DNA of 54,844 bases from Chitinophagaceae bacterium. Lineage in GTDB: Bacteria; Bacteroidota; Bacteroidia; Chitinophagales; Chitinophagaceae. The notes under the pieces were generated by a model. The model made no database searches. It saw only the letters and a program-made list of their open reading frames with translations, and had not been told where the DNA came from. The stretch is taken from positions 1-54,844 of the forward strand of contig JAIXWH010000126.1 of NCBI GenBank assembly GCA_027484165.1. Direction: 5' to 3'. The position numbers were made by a program, and so were the translations under genes. Shown here piece by piece: positions 25,367-50,803 of the stretch (within the stretch, counting starts at the first letter, position 1; the number at the start of each line of letters is the position of its first letter).

Positions 25367-25438
<72 letters not shown>

Positions 25439-25509: not shown

Positions 25510-25540
25510 CATTTCAATCGTTCTTTTCAAAATCGCTAGA

Positions 25541-25620
25541 ATTTCCGGGGTGCTTTCTATTTGAAGGCTGAGATAATACCCGATAACCTGCTCAGGATAA
25601 TGCCTGCGAAGGGAGAAGCT
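25541..25620 (+). promoter_or_regulatory. TPP riboswitch (THI element)
   Basis: The conserved THI core is present in order: GGGGTGC, then GGCTGAGATAATACCC, then AACCTGCTCAGGATAATGCC and GCGAAGGGA. This aptamer binds thiamine pyrophosphate and usually turns the downstream gene off. The P1 helix can be drawn between TTTCC (25542-25546) and GGAGA (25612-25616). Downstream, CACCCGGA (25652-25659) could pair either with the aptamer 5' strand (25544-25552) or with GGGT at 25641-25644, giving a plausible switching platform before the ATG at 25684. I see no U-tract terminator, so control may be at translation. Confidence 0.95.
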
Positions 25621-25683
25621 CCATATTTGGACACAGTTTTGGGTATAATAACACCCGGATGTTCTGCACAAATTTTTATTACA

Positions 25684-42837: not shown

Positions 42838-44139
42838 TTATTTCAAAGTCAACAAATATTGCTTCAAATCGTCATAATTCACCTCCATTTTTTGAGCAAC
42901 CTTCATCTTATTGATAATGGCTCCAACTCCATCTGGTAAAGGAATTTTTCGATTAATTAAGGGTTCTACTACATCATAAAACTTCACAGGATGTGCAGTT
43001 TCAGCAAAAATACCCTGTAAGCCTTCATGCTCGATTAAGTAATTTCTTAAAGCCACGTAACCAACTGCTCCATGAGGATCCAATAAATAATCAAATTCTT
43101 TTTCTACTTCGATAATAGCATTTTTGGTTGTTGTATCATCGATACTCACTGAAGTAAATACCTCTTTTATTTTTTGAAAATTGTTATCAAACAATTGTAG
43201 GATTCTGATAAAATTACTGGGATCTCCCACATCCATTGCATTTGAAATGGTGGCAACAGATTGTTTTGCTTGATATTGATGAGTTAACATATATTGAGGC
43301 ACTACATCATTGGCATTACATGCTGCTATAAAATGATTTATTGGCAGTCCACTTTTCAATGCCAATAAACCTGCACATATATTTCCGAAATTTCCACTTG
43401 GCACACAAATTACAGGAGCATTATTTTTATCCTGCCATTGTTTATACGCTAAAAAATAAAAGAATTGTTGAGGAAGCCATCTTGCAACATTTATCGAATT
43501 TGCAGAAGTTAAAAATAAAGAGGAGCAAAGTTCTTCGTCTGTAAAGGCTTTCTTCACCAATCGTTGACAATCATCAAATGTCCCATTAATTTCAAGGGCA
43601 TGTATATTTTTTCCAAGAGTAGTTAACTGTTTTTCTTGCACACTGCTTACTTTACCACTGGGATATAATATAACAACTTGTACCCCTTCTACACCGTAAA
43701 AGCCATCAGCAACTGCACCGCCTGTATCTCCTGATGTTGCAACCAATACTGTAACTTTTTTATCATTACCTTTTACAAAATAACCCAAACATCTGCTCAT
43801 GAATCTTGCTCCAATATCTTTAAACGCCAATGTATTACCATGAAACATTTCAAGAGCAAACATCTTTGGACTAACTGAAACAACAGGTATTTTAAAATTT
43901 ATAGTTTGTGAAACAATTTCCAACAGCACATCATTCGGAATCACATTTCCTACATAAGGTTTAATTACTCTAAACGCAAGTTCATCATTGGAAATTTGTT
44001 CTATGTTATTGACCAAATCTTTTTCGAGCTGAGGAATAAATTCAGGGAAATAAAGTCCTTTATCAGGAGCCTGACCCTTAATTGTTGCTTCCTTAAAGTC
44101 AACTAAAGGCGCTTTTTTATTTAAACTATAATATTGCAT
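42838..44139 (-). CDS. thrC: Threonine synthase
   Basis: This 433-residue PLP enzyme converts O-phosphohomoserine to threonine. It has the N-terminal YYSLNKKAPLVDFKEA, the PLP-lysine segment GNTLAFKDIGARFM (Lys about residue 107), VATSGDTGGAVADGF and VPSGNFGNICAGLLA. Its form is the bacterial fold type with an N-terminal lid. It is the last gene of the thrA-thrB-thrC operon, 21 bases after thrB. Confidence 0.97.
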   Translation of the reverse strand: MQYYSLNKKAPLVDFKEATIKGQAPDKGLYFPEFIPQLEKDLVNNIEQISNDELAFRVIKPYVGNVIPNDVLLEIVSQTINFKIPVVSVSPKMFALEMFHGNTLAFKDIGARFMSRCLGYFVKGNDKKVTVLVATSGDTGGAVADGFYGVEGVQVVILYPSGKVSSVQEKQLTTLGKNIHALEINGTFDDCQRLVKKAFTDEELCSSLFLTSANSINVARWLPQQFFYFLAYKQWQDKNNAPVICVPSGNFGNICAGLLALKSGLPINHFIAACNANDVVPQYMLTHQYQAKQSVATISNAMDVGDPSNFIRILQLFDNNFQKIKEVFTSVSIDDTTTKNAIIEVEKEFDYLLDPHGAVGYVALRNYLIEHEGLQGIFAETAHPVKFYDVVEPLINRKIPLPDGVGAIINKMKVAQKMEVNYDDLKQYLLTLK

Positions 44140-44160: not shown

Positions 44161-45078
44161 TTAAATCACTTCTACTCCACTTTTTGCAACTGTGGAAACA
44201 TAGGTTTTGTAGTCAATACCAAGATGGTTGTAAATCAGTTTCATATCGCTTTCAACTGACTTTGCGATATTTTGATTTTCACTTAACATGAACAATGACG
44301 GACCGCTTCCCGAAATGCCACCTCCAAGCGCACCGGCTTCGATGCCCATTTTCTTCACCTCATCAAAACCCGGTATCAATTTACTTCTTACTGGCTCTAC
44401 AATCACATCTTGCAAAGAACGACTTATCAATTGATAATCATATTTTAAAAAACCGGAAACTAATCCAGCAACATTGGCCCATTGGGTAACCGCACTTTTT
44501 AAGGATACTTCTTTTGGCAGAATTTCTCTCGCATAAGAAGTTTTTATTTCAATTTGTGGATGAACAATAGTAATAAACAAAGGTGGCGTATCTAGCTCAA
44601 TGATATCTAAAGAAGACGTATCTCTGATTAATACCAAACCTCCGTAGATGCATGGCGCTAAATTATCAGCATGTCTTGAACCACTTGCCAATAGTTCTCC
44701 TTCCATTGCAAAAGCGACCAATTGCTTTTTATTAAAAGGCTTTCCCAATAATTCATTAGCTGCAACAACAATTCCAGCTGCACTTGCAGCGCTGGAACCT
44801 ATTCCACTGCCAGGCTTGATTTTTTTCTCAATTATTATATCAAAACCACCTTCATAATTCAAAGCATCCATCATAGATTGCAGCGCTACTCCGGCAATGT
44901 TATGCTTTGGATCGGTGGGTAAATTAAATTCATCAGTATGTCTGATAATAATTTTATGCTCATCTATTTTCGACAATTCAATGATATCATAAGGCTCATT
45001 CAATGCCATTCCTAAAATATCAAAGCCACAACATAAATTTGAAAGTGTAGCGGGCGATTTTACTTTTATACTTTGCAT
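44161..45078 (-). CDS. thrB: Homoserine kinase
   Basis: This 305-residue GHMP kinase makes O-phosphohomoserine. It has the N-terminal KVKSPATLSNLCCGFDILG, the ATP loop KPGSGIGSSAASAAG (about residues 90-104) and the C-terminal GGGISGSGPSLFML. Length is normal. It lies between thrA (3 bases upstream) and thrC, in the enterobacterial gene order. Confidence 0.97.
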   Translation of the reverse strand: MQSIKVKSPATLSNLCCGFDILGMALNEPYDIIELSKIDEHKIIIRHTDEFNLPTDPKHNIAGVALQSMMDALNYEGGFDIIIEKKIKPGSGIGSSAASAAGIVVAANELLGKPFNKKQLVAFAMEGELLASGSRHADNLAPCIYGGLVLIRDTSSLDIIELDTPPLFITIVHPQIEIKTSYAREILPKEVSLKSAVTQWANVAGLVSGFLKYDYQLISRSLQDVIVEPVRSKLIPGFDEVKKMGIEAGALGGGISGSGPSLFMLSENQNIAKSVESDMKLIYNHLGIDYKTYVSTVAKSGVEVI

Positions 45079-45081
45079 AGC

Positions 45082-47547
45082 TTAAAATTTTGAAGCTCTT
45101 ATAATATCGGCAAAAACGCCACTTGCTGTAACTTCAGCTCCGGCGCCAGCTCCCTTTATTACCAATGGCTGCTCTTTGTAACGATCGGTGTAGAATAAAA
45201 CTACATTATCTTTTCCATACAAATGATACAAGTCATTTTGTGGATTAATATGCTGTAAACCTACAGCAGCTTTTCCATTTTCATAGCTGGCAACAAATTT
45301 TAGAATGTTTCCTTTTGAATGCGCATCATCGAAAAGTTGTTTGAAATGATTTTCTTGGTCGTGCATAGAAGCGTAAAAATCTTCCACGCTTCCTTGCATG
45401 CAAGCTTCAGGCATGAAAGAGTTATTTGCAATATGTTCCATCTCTAATTGCATTCCCGATTCTCTTGCCAAAATCATTATTTTTCTCATCACATCCTTAC
45501 CTCCCAAATCTAAACGTGGATCTGGCTCTGTGTATCCTTCAATCTGTGCTTGCTTTACTACATCAGAAAATTTATTCTTTCCATCGTAATTATTAAAAAC
45601 AAAATTCAACGTTCCGCTTAGCACAGCCTCAATTTTATGAATTCTATCACCGCTATGCATTAAATCATTGATGGTACCAATAATCGGTAACCCAGCGCCT
45701 ACATTAGTCTCAAAAAGAAACTGAGCGTTGTATTCTCTTGACAAATCTTTTAATTTCCTGTAGTTATTATATGGTGATGAAGCTGCTACTTTATTACATG
45801 CAACTACCGCAATACTTTTTTGTAATAATTTATGATATACTTCTGCAACCGATTCATTGGCTGTAATGTCAACAAAAATGGTGTTTCTTAAATTGAGTGA
45901 AATTATTTGCTGAACAAATTCACTCAAATCAGCTCTTACCCCTTCATCAACCGATTGCTTCCAATATTCTAAATCAATGCCAGATTCTTCAATTAGCATT
46001 CTAGTGCTGTTAATAATGCCTGTTACCTTTATATTCAACCTCATTTTTTCCTGAAGAAAAGTGGCTTGATGGTGAAGTTGGGCAAGTAGTTTACTTCCAA
46101 CATTCCCAACTCCTGCAATGAAAACATTCACCAACTTATAAGTTGTTTCAAAAAACTCTTCATGCAATACGTTTATTGTTTTTTTAACATCACTGGTATG
46201 TATAACCGCTGAGATATTTTTTTCTGATGAACCCTGGGCTATAGCTCTGATATTAATCCCATTTCTTCCCATAGCGCTAAACATTCTTCCACTAACTCCA
46301 GTATGATTACGCATATTTTCTCCCACAAGTGCCACAATAGATAAATCTTTTTCTATTTTTAAAGAATCTACTTTTTGGAGTGCGATTTCATTAACAAATG
46401 CAGCATCTACAGCTTGAGATGCTTTTGATGCAAACGCTCCATCAATAGCAACTGTAATTGAATGCTCTGAAGAACTTTGAGTAATCAATATCACATTAAT
46501 TTTCTCATTACTTAATGCCTCAAACAATCTTTTTGAAAAACCTGGGATGCCAATCATACCACTACCCTCTAACGTTAGTAAACATATATTATTAACACTT
46601 GAAATTCCTCTTACTATGTTATCTGATTCAGTTTTAGCATTTCCAAAAAGATGCAAGTCATTTGAAATAACTGTTCCATAATCTTCTGGGGCAAATGTAT
46701 TTTTAATCCAAACTGGAATATTTTTACTCATCACCGGCTGAATAGTTGGAGGATAAATGACTTTAGCTCCAAAATGTGATAATTCCATTGCTTCCTGATA
46801 AGAAATCTGAGGAATTATTTTGGCATTACTGCTCAATCTTGGATCTGCGGTCATCATTCCACTAACATCTGTCCATATTTCCAAACTGTTTACATTTAAT
46901 GCAGCAGCCAAAATTGCTGCTGTATAATCTGAGCCGCCTCTTCCCAGAGTAGTCGTGATATCATTTGCATCTGAAGCAATAAAGCCAGGAAAGATATACA
47001 ATTGTTTGTTTGTAGATTTGATATAATCTTTAATTTTAGAATTGGTTACTGTAAAGTCTACAGCTGCAGAACCATAATTGGAATTGGTTAAAATCACTTT
47101 TCTTGAATCTTTCCAAATGGTTTCAATATTTTTATCGTTAAATGCTGCTGCAATAATTTGAGAAGAGAGTTTTTCACCATAACTGGCAATTTTATCTTTT
47201 GACCTTAATGTCAATTCGCCTAACATGAATAAGCCATCACATAAATTATTCAATTCAGTACAAGCTTTTTCTAGTATCTGAATCAGTGGGCTCTTTGCAG
47301 ATTCACCAACAAGATTATTGATACAATCCTTATGTCTCTGTTCTATTAAATTTAATTTTTCGATGTAAGTTTCCTTTCCTTGAGATGCTAAAGTTGCAGC
47401 ATCCAGCAACAAATCGGTAACGCCTCCCAACGCAGAAACTACAACAATGGTTGGCTCCTTTTTAATAGCATCAGAAACGATTGTGATTACTTTTTTTATG
47501 TTTTCTGCATTGGCTACCGAGGTTCCGCCAAATTTTAATACTTGCAT
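45082..47547 (-). CDS. thrA: Bifunctional aspartate kinase / homoserine dehydrogenase I
   Basis: This 821-residue fusion catalyses the first and third steps from aspartate to homoserine. The aspartokinase half opens with VLKFGGTSVANAENI and has the catalytic TLGRGGSDYTAA (about 205). Two ACT regulatory domains (about 310-460) follow, which in E. coli bind threonine. The homoserine dehydrogenase half begins near FIAGVGNVGSKLLAQL (about residue 478) and contains NVGAGLPIIGTINDL and DPRLDLGGKDVMRK. It heads the thrABC operon and is preceded by a threonine-rich leader peptide and promoter (separate entries), so it is probably controlled by charged tRNA-Thr and tRNA-Ile. Confidence 0.97.
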   Translation of the reverse strand: MQVLKFGGTSVANAENIKKVITIVSDAIKKEPTIVVVSALGGVTDLLLDAATLASQGKETYIEKLNLIEQRHKDCINNLVGESAKSPLIQILEKACTELNNLCDGLFMLGELTLRSKDKIASYGEKLSSQIIAAAFNDKNIETIWKDSRKVILTNSNYGSAAVDFTVTNSKIKDYIKSTNKQLYIFPGFIASDANDITTTLGRGGSDYTAAILAAALNVNSLEIWTDVSGMMTADPRLSSNAKIIPQISYQEAMELSHFGAKVIYPPTIQPVMSKNIPVWIKNTFAPEDYGTVISNDLHLFGNAKTESDNIVRGISSVNNICLLTLEGSGMIGIPGFSKRLFEALSNEKINVILITQSSSEHSITVAIDGAFASKASQAVDAAFVNEIALQKVDSLKIEKDLSIVALVGENMRNHTGVSGRMFSAMGRNGINIRAIAQGSSEKNISAVIHTSDVKKTINVLHEEFFETTYKLVNVFIAGVGNVGSKLLAQLHHQATFLQEKMRLNIKVTGIINSTRMLIEESGIDLEYWKQSVDEGVRADLSEFVQQIISLNLRNTIFVDITANESVAEVYHKLLQKSIAVVACNKVAASSPYNNYRKLKDLSREYNAQFLFETNVGAGLPIIGTINDLMHSGDRIHKIEAVLSGTLNFVFNNYDGKNKFSDVVKQAQIEGYTEPDPRLDLGGKDVMRKIMILARESGMQLEMEHIANNSFMPEACMQGSVEDFYASMHDQENHFKQLFDDAHSKGNILKFVASYENGKAAVGLQHINPQNDLYHLYGKDNVVLFYTDRYKEQPLVIKGAGAGAEVTASGVFADIIRASKF

Positions 47548-47621
47548 AGAAATTACTTTTATAAAATGAAATTAGTTTGTGATTGAGTTCAGCAAATGCC
47601 CTTGGGATAATATGATAATGT

Positions 47622-47665
47622 ACAACCCTAGCGGGTTGTTGTTGTAGTTGTTGTAATAAACAACT
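47622..47665 (-). promoter_or_regulatory. Tandem hairpins overlapping the thr leader peptide
   Basis: Two perfect 7-base stems lie on the transcript. Hairpin 1 pairs AGTTGTT (47665-47659) with AACAACT (47652-47646). Hairpin 2 pairs ACAACCC (47639-47633) with GGGTTGT (47628-47622) and holds the leader stop codon. The GTTGT arms can also pair with the repeated ACAAC of the threonine codons, so the folds compete. Hairpin 2 is not followed by a T-tract. Confidence 0.6.
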
Positions 47666-47699
47666 GAAGAGTAGTAATATTTGATATAAACTGATACAT
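47628..47699 (-). CDS. Threonine operon leader peptide (thrL-like)
   Basis: This is a 23-codon frame from ATG 47699 to TAG 47628. Nine codons are Thr (positions 9-10 and 16-22, the latter seven in a row) and three are Ile (5, 8 and 15); the last residue is Arg. E. coli thrL likewise consists mostly of Thr and Ile codons. The frame begins 9 bases after a promoter -7 box and ends 80 bases before thrA. Ribosome stalling on scarce charged tRNA-Thr or tRNA-Ile would change which leader hairpins form. That mechanism is inferred; no canonical U-tract terminator is visible between the leader and thrA, so Rho-dependent or translational control is possible. Confidence 0.85.
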   Translation of the reverse strand: MYQFISNITTLQLFITTTTTTTR

Positions 47700-47708
47700 G
47701 ATCTTTGT

Positions 47709-47739
47709 TAAATATAGTACAGGATTCTTAAAAATACAA
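47709..47739 (-). promoter_or_regulatory. Promoter of the thr operon
   Basis: On the minus strand TTG (47739-47737), a 20-base spacer and TATATTTA (47716-47709) match the Bacteroidota -33/-7 pattern with A for G at the last base. Transcription would start a few bases before the leader peptide ATG at 47699. Confidence 0.6.
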
Positions 47740-48433: not shown

Positions 48434-50803
48434 ATGCATAAGGGCTTTTCATTCAATCCAGGAGAATTTGAAAATATTTTCCCATTCTTCATTGTCATCA
48501 ATGAAAACATGGAGATTTATTCTCTTGGGCCCTCAATAAAAAAAATCCTAAAATCCACCCCAATTTCATTTACCGATACTTTTGAGCTGGAGAGACCAAA
48601 ACTGAATGAAATCAATTTCAATGCTTTGAAAGAATTAAATCACCAGCTTATCTTTCTTCAGATCAAAACCATCAAAAATCTGGTATACAGAGGTCAGATA
48701 GAGTTTCTATCTGCTGAAAATAAAATTTTGATTATTGGAGCTCCTTGGTTCATTACCACTCAGGATTTGAAAAATTCAGGTTTAGCATTGAATGATTTTC
48801 CTGCAAATAACCCGATGATTGACATGCTTCATGTGTTGAAGACACAGGAAATTGCAAATGACGAATTAAAGGAATTGCTCACTAAAGCCGATCAACAAAA
48901 AAATGAATTAAAGGAAGCAAACAAAAAAATACAAAAAATTTCAAAATCTCTTGAGGAGAGCAATCAACGATATGAATTTGTAAATAAAGCAACTTCGGAT
49001 GTTATCTGGGATCTTGATTTGCAAACGAATGAAATGTTTCATGGAGATGGATTTAAACCCATCTTTGGTTATGATTCACCAGCAAATTCAAATGAATCAC
49101 AACAATGGCATAAATACATTCATCCTGAAGATTTTGATAGAATTGAAAATAATTTTAAAAATTTTATTGACAATAATGTGAATTATTGGACGGATGAATA
49201 CAGGTATTTAAAAAGTGACGGGACTTATGCTATCATTCTTGACAAAGCTTATGTAATCAGAGATGAACGAGGAGTTGCGATAAGAATGGTTGGCGCTATG
49301 CAAGATATCACTAAAATAAGAGAAGAAGAAGAACACTTAAGATTGCTTGAATCTGTAATTAAACATACCAATGATGGAGTTATGATTACAGAAGCAAAGG
49401 AAAATCATTCAATTGTTTATATAAATGAAGCTTTTACAAAAGTAACTGGTTATACTATCAATGAAATATATGGTAAAAATCCAAAAATATTTCAAGGACC
49501 TAAAACTGACAAAAGTCAATTTAGTAAAATGAAAGAAGCCATAAAAAATTGGCAACCTTGTGAACTTACTGTAATTAATTATAAAAAGAACGGGGATGAA
49601 TACTGGAATAATTTTTCAATAAGTCCAGTAATGAACGACAAAGGTGAATATACTCATTGGATTTCAGTTGAAAGAGATGTTACAGAACAGATAAAGGCAA
49701 ATGAAGAATTAAACAACCAAAAAAAATTCAATGAGGATATTTTAAATAATATACCAACTGATATCGCTGTATTTGATCCCAATCATAATTATTTATATGT
49801 AAACCCATACGGAATTAAGAATAAAGAAATCAGAGAATGGATTATCAACAAAAATGATTTCGATTATGCAAAGTTGAAAGAAATAGATGACAGTGGAGCC
49901 AGAAAAAGATGGGAACGATTTGAAGAAGCTGTTGAAACCAAAGAGAAAGTGATTTGGATTGATGAGCATCCCAGACCTGATGGAAAAAAAAATTACATAC
50001 TAAGAAACTTCTACCCTTATTTTGAAAACAAAAAGCTGAAGTATGTTATTGGATATGGACTTGATATAACTGATAGAAAAGAAATTGAAATAAAATTAAA
50101 TGACGCTCTTGAATCCGTTCAAAAAACAAACAGCGAGTTAGAGCAATTTGCATATGTAGCTTCTCATGATTTACAAGAGCCCCTCAGAATGGTAACGAGT
50201 TTTTTGACTCAACTAGAAAAAAAATATGGCGATACTCTTGATGATAAAGCAAAAGAATACATCTTTTTTGCTGTAGATGGTGCTAAAAGAATGCGGCAAA
50301 TCATTTTGGATTTACTTGAATTTTCAAGAGTAGGACGAACGGATGAAACACTAAAAGAAGTTAGTATTGACACCATTGTTCATGAAATTATTATATTACA
50401 TGGAAAACAAATTGAAGAATTACATGCATCAATAAAATATGATGAACTCCCAACGATTATAACTCACAAAACACCTATTCGACAGTTATTTCAGAATATA
50501 ATAGGAAATAGTTTAAAATACCATAGATCCGGGGTACCTCCTATTATTGAAATCAAGTGCCATGACAAAAGTGAATACTGGGAATTTTCAATATCTGACA
50601 ATGGAATTGGTATAGAATCTGAATATCATGAGAAAATTTTTGTAATTTTCCAAAGGCTTCATAACAAAGATGAATATTCGGGAACAGGAATTGGATTGGC
50701 TATTTGCAGAAAAATCATTGAATCTTTGGGAGGTAAAATATGGATTACATCTGTTTTAAACGAAGGAAGTACTTTTTATTTTACCATTCCAAAACAGATA
50801 TAA
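48434..50803 (+). CDS. HNOBA-PAS-PAS-PAS histidine kinase, partner of H-NOX
   Basis: This 789-residue cytoplasmic kinase has no membrane segment. Residues 1-165 form an HNOBA domain (heme-NO-binding-associated): NIFPFFIVINENMEIYSLGPS, RGQIEFLSAENKILIIGAPW and SGLALNDFPANNPMIDMLH. A coiled coil follows (about 140-180), then PAS domains at about 180-295, 305-420 and 430-550. The second PAS reads GKNPKIFQGPKTD, like a LOV domain but with Pro350 where the photoactive Cys would be. The kinase core has His578 in FAYVASHDLQEPLRM, Asn692 in GNSLKYH, DNGIGI and GTGIGLA. HNOBA domains are known from guanylate cyclases and bacterial kinases that bind H-NOX, so NO-bound H-NOX probably controls this kinase. 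Confidence 0.92.
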   Translation: MHKGFSFNPGEFENIFPFFIVINENMEIYSLGPSIKKILKSTPISFTDTFELERPKLNEINFNALKELNHQLIFLQIKTIKNLVYRGQIEFLSAENKILIIGAPWFITTQDLKNSGLALNDFPANNPMIDMLHVLKTQEIANDELKELLTKADQQKNELKEANKKIQKISKSLEESNQRYEFVNKATSDVIWDLDLQTNEMFHGDGFKPIFGYDSPANSNESQQWHKYIHPEDFDRIENNFKNFIDNNVNYWTDEYRYLKSDGTYAIILDKAYVIRDERGVAIRMVGAMQDITKIREEEEHLRLLESVIKHTNDGVMITEAKENHSIVYINEAFTKVTGYTINEIYGKNPKIFQGPKTDKSQFSKMKEAIKNWQPCELTVINYKKNGDEYWNNFSISPVMNDKGEYTHWISVERDVTEQIKANEELNNQKKFNEDILNNIPTDIAVFDPNHNYLYVNPYGIKNKEIREWIINKNDFDYAKLKEIDDSGARKRWERFEEAVETKEKVIWIDEHPRPDGKKNYILRNFYPYFENKKLKYVIGYGLDITDRKEIEIKLNDALESVQKTNSELEQFAYVASHDLQEPLRMVTSFLTQLEKKYGDTLDDKAKEYIFFAVDGAKRMRQIILDLLEFSRVGRTDETLKEVSIDTIVHEIIILHGKQIEELHASIKYDELPTIITHKTPIRQLFQNIIGNSLKYHRSGVPPIIEIKCHDKSEYWEFSISDNGIGIESEYHEKIFVIFQRLHNKDEYSGTGIGLAICRKIIESLGGKIWITSVLNEGSTFYFTIPKQI

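Follow-up and report, generated by a model that had tools for sequence, protein, structure and literature searches.

What might stop transcription of the threonine operon in a Chitinophagaceae bacterium whose leader carries the threonine codons of an attenuator and no T-tract terminator? The thr operon attenuator of Escherichia coli (RF00506, Thr_leader) joins a Thr/Ile-rich leader peptide and control by ribosome position to a 3:4 terminator with a T-tract. Here, we follow up a sequence-only reading of the window, by which we mean the whole stretch of DNA analysed (54,844 nt; contig JAIXWH010000126.1 of assembly GCA_027484165.1). That reading had proposed a Thr/Ile-rich leader peptide 5′ of thrABC and remarked on the missing classic terminator.

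The thr locus of the window

The operon lies on the minus strand in the order thrA-thrB-thrC, with gene identities assigned through NCBIfam. In the direction of transcription, the features are as follows.

47737..47739, minus strand: TTG, taken as the -33 element of the leader promoter, read in the sequence
47709..47716, minus strand: TATATTTA, taken as the -7 element, 9 nt 5′ of the leader ATG
47628..47699, minus strand: leader ORF, MYQFISNITTLQLFITTTTTTTR and stop, read in the sequence, with homologous frames in relatives
47682..47688, minus strand: TATATCA, perhaps the leader copy of the CATATYA box in degenerate form, positioned like the leader copy of relatives and weak in the window
47646..47665, minus strand: hairpin 1, AGTTGTT/AACAACT, inside the leader frame, from folding
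47634..47657, minus strand: regulatory codon run, codons -9 to -2 (Ile and seven Thr), 85-100% Thr+Ile per position in 67 leaders
47622..47639, minus strand: hairpin A, ACAACCC-GCTA-GGGTTGT, from folding and covariation
47606..47614, minus strand: box CATATTATC, 7 nt 3′ of the hairpin A stem, conserved in relatives
47590..47601, minus strand: hairpin B, GGGC-ATTT-GCTG, from the covariation alignment; in other families mostly another sequence in the same place
45082..47547, minus strand: thrA, bifunctional aspartate kinase/homoserine dehydrogenase I (NF006959, 1008.9 bits against a cut-off of 726)
44161..45078, minus strand: thrB, homoserine kinase (NF002288 and TIGR00191, both above cut-off)
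42838..44139, minus strand: thrC, threonine synthase (TIGR00260, above cut-off)

The leader frame runs from an ATG at 47697-47699 to a TAG at 47628-47630, and its 23 codons include seven consecutive Thr, two further Thr and three Ile codons, with 80 nt between the stop and the thrA ATG. TTG and TATATTTA, which we take to be -33 and -7 promoter elements under their consensus names, are separated by 20 nt in the window, and we infer that the thr leader transcript starts with a short 5′ UTR. The promoter, the frame with its Thr and Ile counts, the hairpins and the 80-nt gap had all been placed correctly by the sequence-only reading, on the minus strand. Among relatives, TAnnTT[TCA]G occurs in 40 of 67 leaders compared with 15% of shuffles, and a start codon follows it in 38 of these 40, at a median of 14 nt.

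Leaders of the family (L090, L095, L098 and others) carry a recurrent ACTAAC(R)NTTGTTAT that includes an imperfect TAAC..TGTTA palindrome. It is located approximately 25-35 nt 5′ of the -7 box, where in many relatives it overlaps the -33 part of the leader promoter. This recurrent sequence, a possible operator, is absent from the window.

Divergent from thrA, the window encodes a haem-NO-binding protein (H-NOX, PF07700; 47888-48430, plus strand), followed by a PAS/histidine kinase (48434-50803, plus strand) and response regulators, together likely a NO-sensing cluster. A TPP riboswitch (RF00059, 60.9 bits) is found at 25536-25631 on the plus strand and a tRNA at 25367-25438 on the minus strand.

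Conservation in the family and the order

Two hallmarks by which leader attenuators are recognised were found at the locus, namely a conserved short ORF rich in codons for the end product of the operon and a position 5′ of the matching biosynthetic operon. Across the order, thrA was present in 80 of 149 genomes, and 15 of the 16 thrA-bearing genomes of the window's own family in that sample had a Thr/Ile-rich frame ending in TTR, TIR, TTL, TTP or similar, 80-124 nt 5′ of thrA (240 in one) and with the stop codon in a hairpin; the remaining genome (G020) had no such frame. In this comparison of thrA-upstream regions, 4 of 75 loci were dropped as their thrA start could not be aligned. No comparable frame was found near thrA at the 11 loci of a neighbouring family (f8), where thrA is 63-65% identical and the best candidate (L019) lies 346 nt away.

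A covariance model of the hairpin and its tail (R1) was built from 14 sequences, those left of 15 once L028 with its degenerate tail had been dropped. In its alignment a double change occurs at one pair only, and RNAalifold predicts five pairs, all in hairpin A. R1 matched 69 of 117 family genomes at E<=0.05. The gene thrA was found in 81 of the 117, and in 66 of these the match lies upstream of it in the right orientation, 59 times at 40-85 nt; the distance between element and thrA varies from 40 to 231 nt and is once 579 nt. Ten matches are located away from any detected thrA, two of them strong and near contig ends (G211 and G183) and the other eight with E values of 0.002-0.033. In 15 of the 81 thrA-bearing genomes R1 finds nothing. 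Among 12 upstream regions from these 15, five by reading have the leader, hairpin and box (G177, G171, G215, G153 and G241), one is ended by the contig end and several have no visible leader. Of 54 model matches in 298 genomes of the order, 53 fall in the window's family, and the exact hairpin pattern had no match in viral contigs. The tail pattern occurs in the window's genome at thrA only, and further matches across the 117 family genomes are scattered, among the matches listed, of which few had their contexts checked.

Among family genomes with thrA, most repeat the frame, hairpin and tail 5′ of the gene, which is more than chance. The earlier proposal of a Thr/Ile leader peptide is right for a range reaching far beyond the window's genome, and the Thr-rich frame, whose lack in close relatives would have told against that proposal, is present upstream of thrA in relatives.

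The codon run itself is conserved as a translated sequence would be. The stop codon occupies the same model position in 67 of 72 leaders; in the other five (L131, L134, L148, L151 and L164) it is displaced and the hairpin is intact. Beyond the regulatory run, the Thr+Ile share falls to 44% at codon -10 in the 67 leaders. At codons -4 to -9 the first base is A in 87-97% of cases and the commonest third base reaches 39-66%, a pattern that, on comparison of the sequences, is as expected for the coding signature of a translated run. At codons -2 and -3, which also form a hairpin arm, the third base is always C and is A in 81%, respectively.

Hairpins and the absence of a classic terminator

Hairpin A has a 7-bp stem, with the leader stop codon occupying the loop and the first 3′ base, and is far more stable than shuffles (mean z -3.8 over 72 sequences). 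In alignment A5, which was fitted to the structure and includes two antisense matches (L245 and L141), one pair of this hairpin has 15 C-G to U-A double changes, and four pairs have double changes. Whole-structure covariation in the fitted alignment is 0.162 compared with 0.093 in shuffles, and none of 500 shuffles reaches it. Over 84 distinct sequences 90.3% of cells can pair and 30 cells are double-changed, where shuffles give 5.7; further pair types are no more numerous than in shuffles (160 of 500).

The other structures are weaker. In relatives, the region of hairpin 1 shows a moderate gain in folding over shuffles (mean z -1.35, n=72), and for hairpin B the window's group shows no gain in stability over shuffles (mean z -0.20, n=111). 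The 161-nt leader as a whole has a minimum free energy of -22.9 kcal/mol (z -2.3), and in constrained folds of the window hairpin A is the sole strong structure that changes.

A search for mutually exclusive pairings gave no conserved antiterminator in the window's group. The sequence-only reading had suggested that the hairpin arms could pair with the ACAAC repeats of the Thr codons, which is possible in the window, yet is not conserved (mean z -0.41 for the 5′ arm of hairpin A against upstream sequence and +0.02 for the 3′ arm, n=72), and this pairing was rejected. A second candidate, in which the 5′ arm would bind the GGG of hairpin B (mean z -1.10), was likewise discarded: the base preceding this GGG shows no covariation with the 5′ arm, and most of the f25 loci shown have no GGG at that place. 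For the 3′ arm, no downstream partner is conserved in the window's group (mean z +0.60; +0.28 in a second test of 2:3 pairing, n=111).

The observation that the classic terminator is missing was borne out, as the minus strand of the window has no T-tract after the hairpin that holds the stop codon, and the terminator scan flags the other strand only. In the 12 nt 3′ of the stem, the longest T-run is 1-3 in 62 of 72 sequences. Under a relaxed rule of our own (5 of 8 T, starting 1-3 nt after the stem), 49 of 134 thr leaders qualify and 85 fail, in a set whose sequences may share organisms and are not 134 independent genomes.

A conserved CATATYAYC box

Downstream of hairpin A, the tail follows the consensus TYCATATYAYC, approximately 4-6 nt, GGGC, a loop and GCYG. 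The spacing from stem to box is 6-10 nt in 129 of 134 sequences and 4-11 nt in all, in a search that sought the box solely 4-17 nt from the stem and used sequences found by models containing it. The core reads CATAT in 106 sequences, TATAT in 21 and another variant in 7, and ATA is present in 134 of 134. Because the models contain the box, the test was repeated without any model on 80 thrA loci chosen by protein alone, 56 of which have a Thr/Ile-rich frame by a peptide threshold (4.2) that was fixed after the scores had been seen. A stem at the stop codon and a box 5-11 nt later were found in 44 of the 56 leaders. The 12 failures comprise five Hymenobacter loci (L268, L269, L276, L286 and L289), Solitalea L299, L282, L295, whose frame is likely spurious, and L226, L238, L245 and L263, which do match R1.

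Additionally, 34 of 72 leaders carry a second copy, CATATYAY, inside the leader, compared with a mean of 1.6 when dinucleotides are shuffled and of 2.0 when the codon order is. This excess over both kinds of shuffle argues for a nucleic-acid motif and not merely a peptide motif. In the whole window CATATYAYC is not enriched (4 matches, 2.45 expected). The box, the second hairpin, the spacing and the leader copy are absent from the sequence-only account, as is the contrast with T-tract attenuators in related genomes, and a conserved motif in place of the usual stop signal is apparently undescribed.

Range across Bacteroidota

A broader covariance model (R2), run on 395 genomes of the phylum, gave matches in 39, of which 11 belong to the window's family (f1), 17 to f24 and f25 and 11 to f44, a family outside the class. 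Nineteen of the 28 genomes outside the window's family were inspected, and in all 19 the match lies directly upstream of thrA with leader, hairpin and box; hairpin B is mostly of different sequence there. Leader, hairpin and box are likewise found in Chryseobacterium (L292, L302 and L304) and Cloacibacterium (L291). The absence of matches from other groups is no proof of absence, as filters were strict and many genomes have no thrA.

Folding differs between these groups. The f24/f25 group has a strong hairpin B (mean z -2.0, n=17) and a mean z of -0.57 for 2:3 pairing, and at Chryseobacterium-type and f24 loci the 3′ arm of hairpin A can pair downstream (GGGGUACAU with AUGUACUCU in L312). These predicted folds hint at a fuller 1-2-3-4 set that is lacking in Chitinophagaceae. 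An antiterminator is present in Hymenobacter and partial at Chryseobacterium-type loci.

The five Hymenobacter thr leaders resemble that of the window in lying 5′ of thrA, in ending in TTTR or similar and in having the stop codon at the first hairpin. They differ from it in having a 2:3 antiterminator and a 3:4 terminator with TTTT or more, and the CATAT box was not found in them. When arm 1 is masked, four of the five best folds (all but that of L286) lack the stem base of the T-tract terminator; when arm 2 is masked too, all five form it. In unconstrained folds arm 1 pairs with segment 4 and not with segment 2, which makes the free state dependent on the order of folding.

Leaders of other amino-acid operons

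The view, held at first, that the tail is a feature of thr only was contradicted by a his leader from another family of the order (L328, genome G008). This leader, MQFFSIHTSHLFHHSS and stop, lies 5′ of hisG, approximately 80-110 nt before the hisG match, and its stop codon sits in the loop of ATTCCTC-GTGA-GGGGAAT, followed by 9 nt, CATATAATC and a small GAGA/TCTC hairpin. The stop-in-loop hairpin, spacer and box are as in the window, whereas the leader senses His, the hairpin sequence is unrelated, a T-run lies further downstream and the example is single. A scan for geometry alone (a stem with the stop in its loop, 5-11 nt, box) in 347 sequences (1.4 Mb, both strands) gave 60 distinct hits, made up of 58 with a Thr/Ile run, the thr leader L134 with its shifted stop and the his leader L328; one first-order random copy gave none. 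The scanned loci had mostly been fetched for thrA, and the scan is no survey of other operons. Judging from these sequences, the module of stop hairpin and box is not limited to thr.

Of six hisG loci, three have classical-looking His leaders, one is box-type (L328) and two have no leader (L329 and L330); among 11 ilvD-family loci, only L335 has a convincing leader. His-rich (e.g. MKKITHIHHHHLLPTGKLC) or branched-chain-rich leader peptides with classical-looking terminators were seen 5′ of hisG and ilvD in L331, L332, L333 and L335. The trp (L179, L181-L183), his (L331-L333) and ilv (L335) leaders of the order share with the window a leader peptide that carries the regulated residue (WWWH, HHHH). 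They differ in their strong terminator hairpins followed by T-rich tracts (L179 by reading) and in regulatory codons further from the stop. The window's genome (G000), scored as 100% complete, has no hisG or ilvD match, and may be auxotrophic for His and Ile/Val yet keep its Thr leader.

Comparison with described systems

With the E. coli thr attenuator (RF00506) the window has in common the Thr/Ile-rich leader 5′ of thrABC and, as we read it, ribosome-position control. It differs in that the regulatory codons enter the hairpin, the stop codon lies in its loop, a 3:4 T-tract terminator is lacking and an extra box is present. Against Rfam 15, the leader matched no family at gathering scores and no leader family at E<=10, RF00506 included. 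RF01692 (Bacteroid-trp) had no match at the leader locus and none at E<=1 in the window's genome, and its matches in related genomes were all below the gathering score.

Literature searches, which did not extend to attenuator comparisons in subscription journals, returned no description of a thr leader in Bacteroidota. In the portions of the sources that were available, a Bacteroid-trp RNA is named (PMC2864571), a map of B. thetaiotaomicron mentions leader-peptide-like small ORFs (PMC7366714) and strong clues for leader-peptide attenuation before amino-acid operons are reported for Flavobacterium psychrophilum (PMC9723704). The 5′ regions of the latter share such clues with our locus, whereas the available text gives no sequence or thr detail, which its supplement could include.

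A proposed ribosome-sensing attenuator and its alternatives

Comparison among relatives establishes the coding of the leader, its codon bias, the hairpin, the box, the spacing and the operon, and the element is real, conserved and coding. Control through the Thr/Ile leader has strong support, and regulation of the thr operon by threonine supply is highly likely. As to how it works, we lean, with somewhat better than even confidence, towards a ribosome-sensing transcription attenuator whose off-state would be hairpin A at the stop codon together with the box, acting as a U-poor stop or pause signal; a U-poor attenuator variant would then be conserved in several Bacteroidota families. We infer the transcriptional output, hairpin A as the off-state and the box as a pause or termination signal.

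In this attenuator, a transcript with a short 5′ UTR would encode a leader peptide whose last residue is R, L or P, preceded by a stretch of eight codons, mostly for Thr or Ile; the last two of the eight also belong to the 5′ arm of hairpin A, which has the stop codon in its loop. When Thr-tRNA (or Ile-tRNA) is scarce, the ribosome would wait on these codons and cover the 5′ arm, hairpin A would be blocked and thrA would be transcribed; the way in which the codon run abuts and enters hairpin A fits such direct occlusion. When supply is good, the ribosome would terminate and leave, hairpin A would fold behind RNA polymerase, and the polymerase, paused over the CATATYAYC box 6-10 nt past the hairpin, would be stopped or released, possibly assisted by NusA, NusG or Rho. 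The proposed sign is supported by Hymenobacter, where the equivalent segment is part of a classical 1:2, 2:3, 3:4 set.

In terminators, the RNA 3′ end lies 7-9 nt past the stem. The box would place the RNA 3′ end 6-16 nt past the stem of hairpin A, in the region, at its near edge, of terminators and of NusA-stimulated hairpin pauses, for which a hairpin 10-13 nt upstream is described in the available part of PMC12288461, and hairpin A and the box are proposed as a stop or pause signal for this reason. Since terminators that lie near a stop codon are repressed by ribosomes in E. coli (PMC4824070, available in part), ribosome release would have to precede polymerase escape, and a pause at the box would give time for it. 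Several points count against the attenuator as proposed: a fast ribosome at plentiful threonine could also block hairpin A, and, with the footprint assumed, stalling at codons -8 or -9 may leave hairpin A beyond the reach of the ribosome. The lack of any other strong structure that changes in the constrained folds of the window, the leaders that satisfy the relaxed rule, a hairpin B no stabler than shuffles, the further pair types at shuffle level and the thrA-bearing genomes in which R1 finds nothing also weigh against it.

The chief rival, which we think rather unlikely, is an ordinary weak intrinsic terminator, in which hairpin A and a displaced short U-rich spacer suffice and the CATAT box is incidental or shapes the hybrid. 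U-rich spacers such as UACAUUUU(U)A at f25 loci agree with it, and the part of the group that satisfies the relaxed rule may be just that. It leaves unexplained, however, the ATA kept at near-fixed spacing in every sequence and the recurrence of the box behind the unrelated hairpin of a his leader, and the sense strand of the window, like most sequences after the stem, offers no T-tract.

Two further alternatives seem to us quite improbable, each to the same degree. In Rho-dependent attenuation, Rho would act downstream after normal leader termination, with hairpin A, the box and hairpin B setting a loading or pause site. The lack of a canonical terminator in the window and the pyrimidine-C dimers on both sides of the box would suit Rho, but a stalled ribosome also bares downstream RNA, so the direction of control needs an extra switch, and ATAT, which the box conserves, is not known as a Rho feature. 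With the opposite sign, hairpin A would be protective and a ribosome at the stop codon would open it and so cause the stop. Early stalls would indeed leave hairpin A free, and some Flavobacteriales-type loci offer, ahead of a U-run, a segment with which the 3′ arm can pair, but in the window's group that arm has no conserved downstream partner.

Least probable, and to our minds very much so, is an output other than termination, with the leader controlling translation or decay of the mRNA, or the box and hairpin B binding a protein, tRNA or metabolite: the strongly conserved tail, and a hairpin B fixed in position but mostly different in sequence from family to family, fit this, but the distance to thrA is variable where that from hairpin A to the box is nearly fixed, and a box common to a his leader speaks against a threonine-specific ligand.

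Beyond the ribosome-sensing attenuator at thr, we tentatively raise, as a possibility that falls short of even chances, that CATATYAYC is a pause or termination signal of Bacteroidota RNA polymerase for amino-acid attenuators generally. The leader copy would hold the polymerase until a ribosome loads, and the second copy would be a hairpin-dependent, U-tract-free decision point that reads the departure of the ribosome. The box-type his leader slightly raises the odds of both this general signal and the ribosome-sensing attenuator and, with an unrelated hairpin and the same box, would be a first sign of a module exchangeable between amino acids.

Significance

The element provides a defined and widely conserved sequence for asking how transcription in Bacteroidota stops or pauses without a U-tract. 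It also offers a natural contrast between the classical thr attenuator of Hymenobacter and the box-type in Chitinophagaceae and other families, in which the sensor is alike and the output module differs, and his leaders likewise come in box-type and classical kinds inside one order. Further, the element can be used for annotating thr regulation in the phylum, the window element having no match in Rfam 15. If the box is truly a pause or termination signal, the finding would be more than a variant attenuator.
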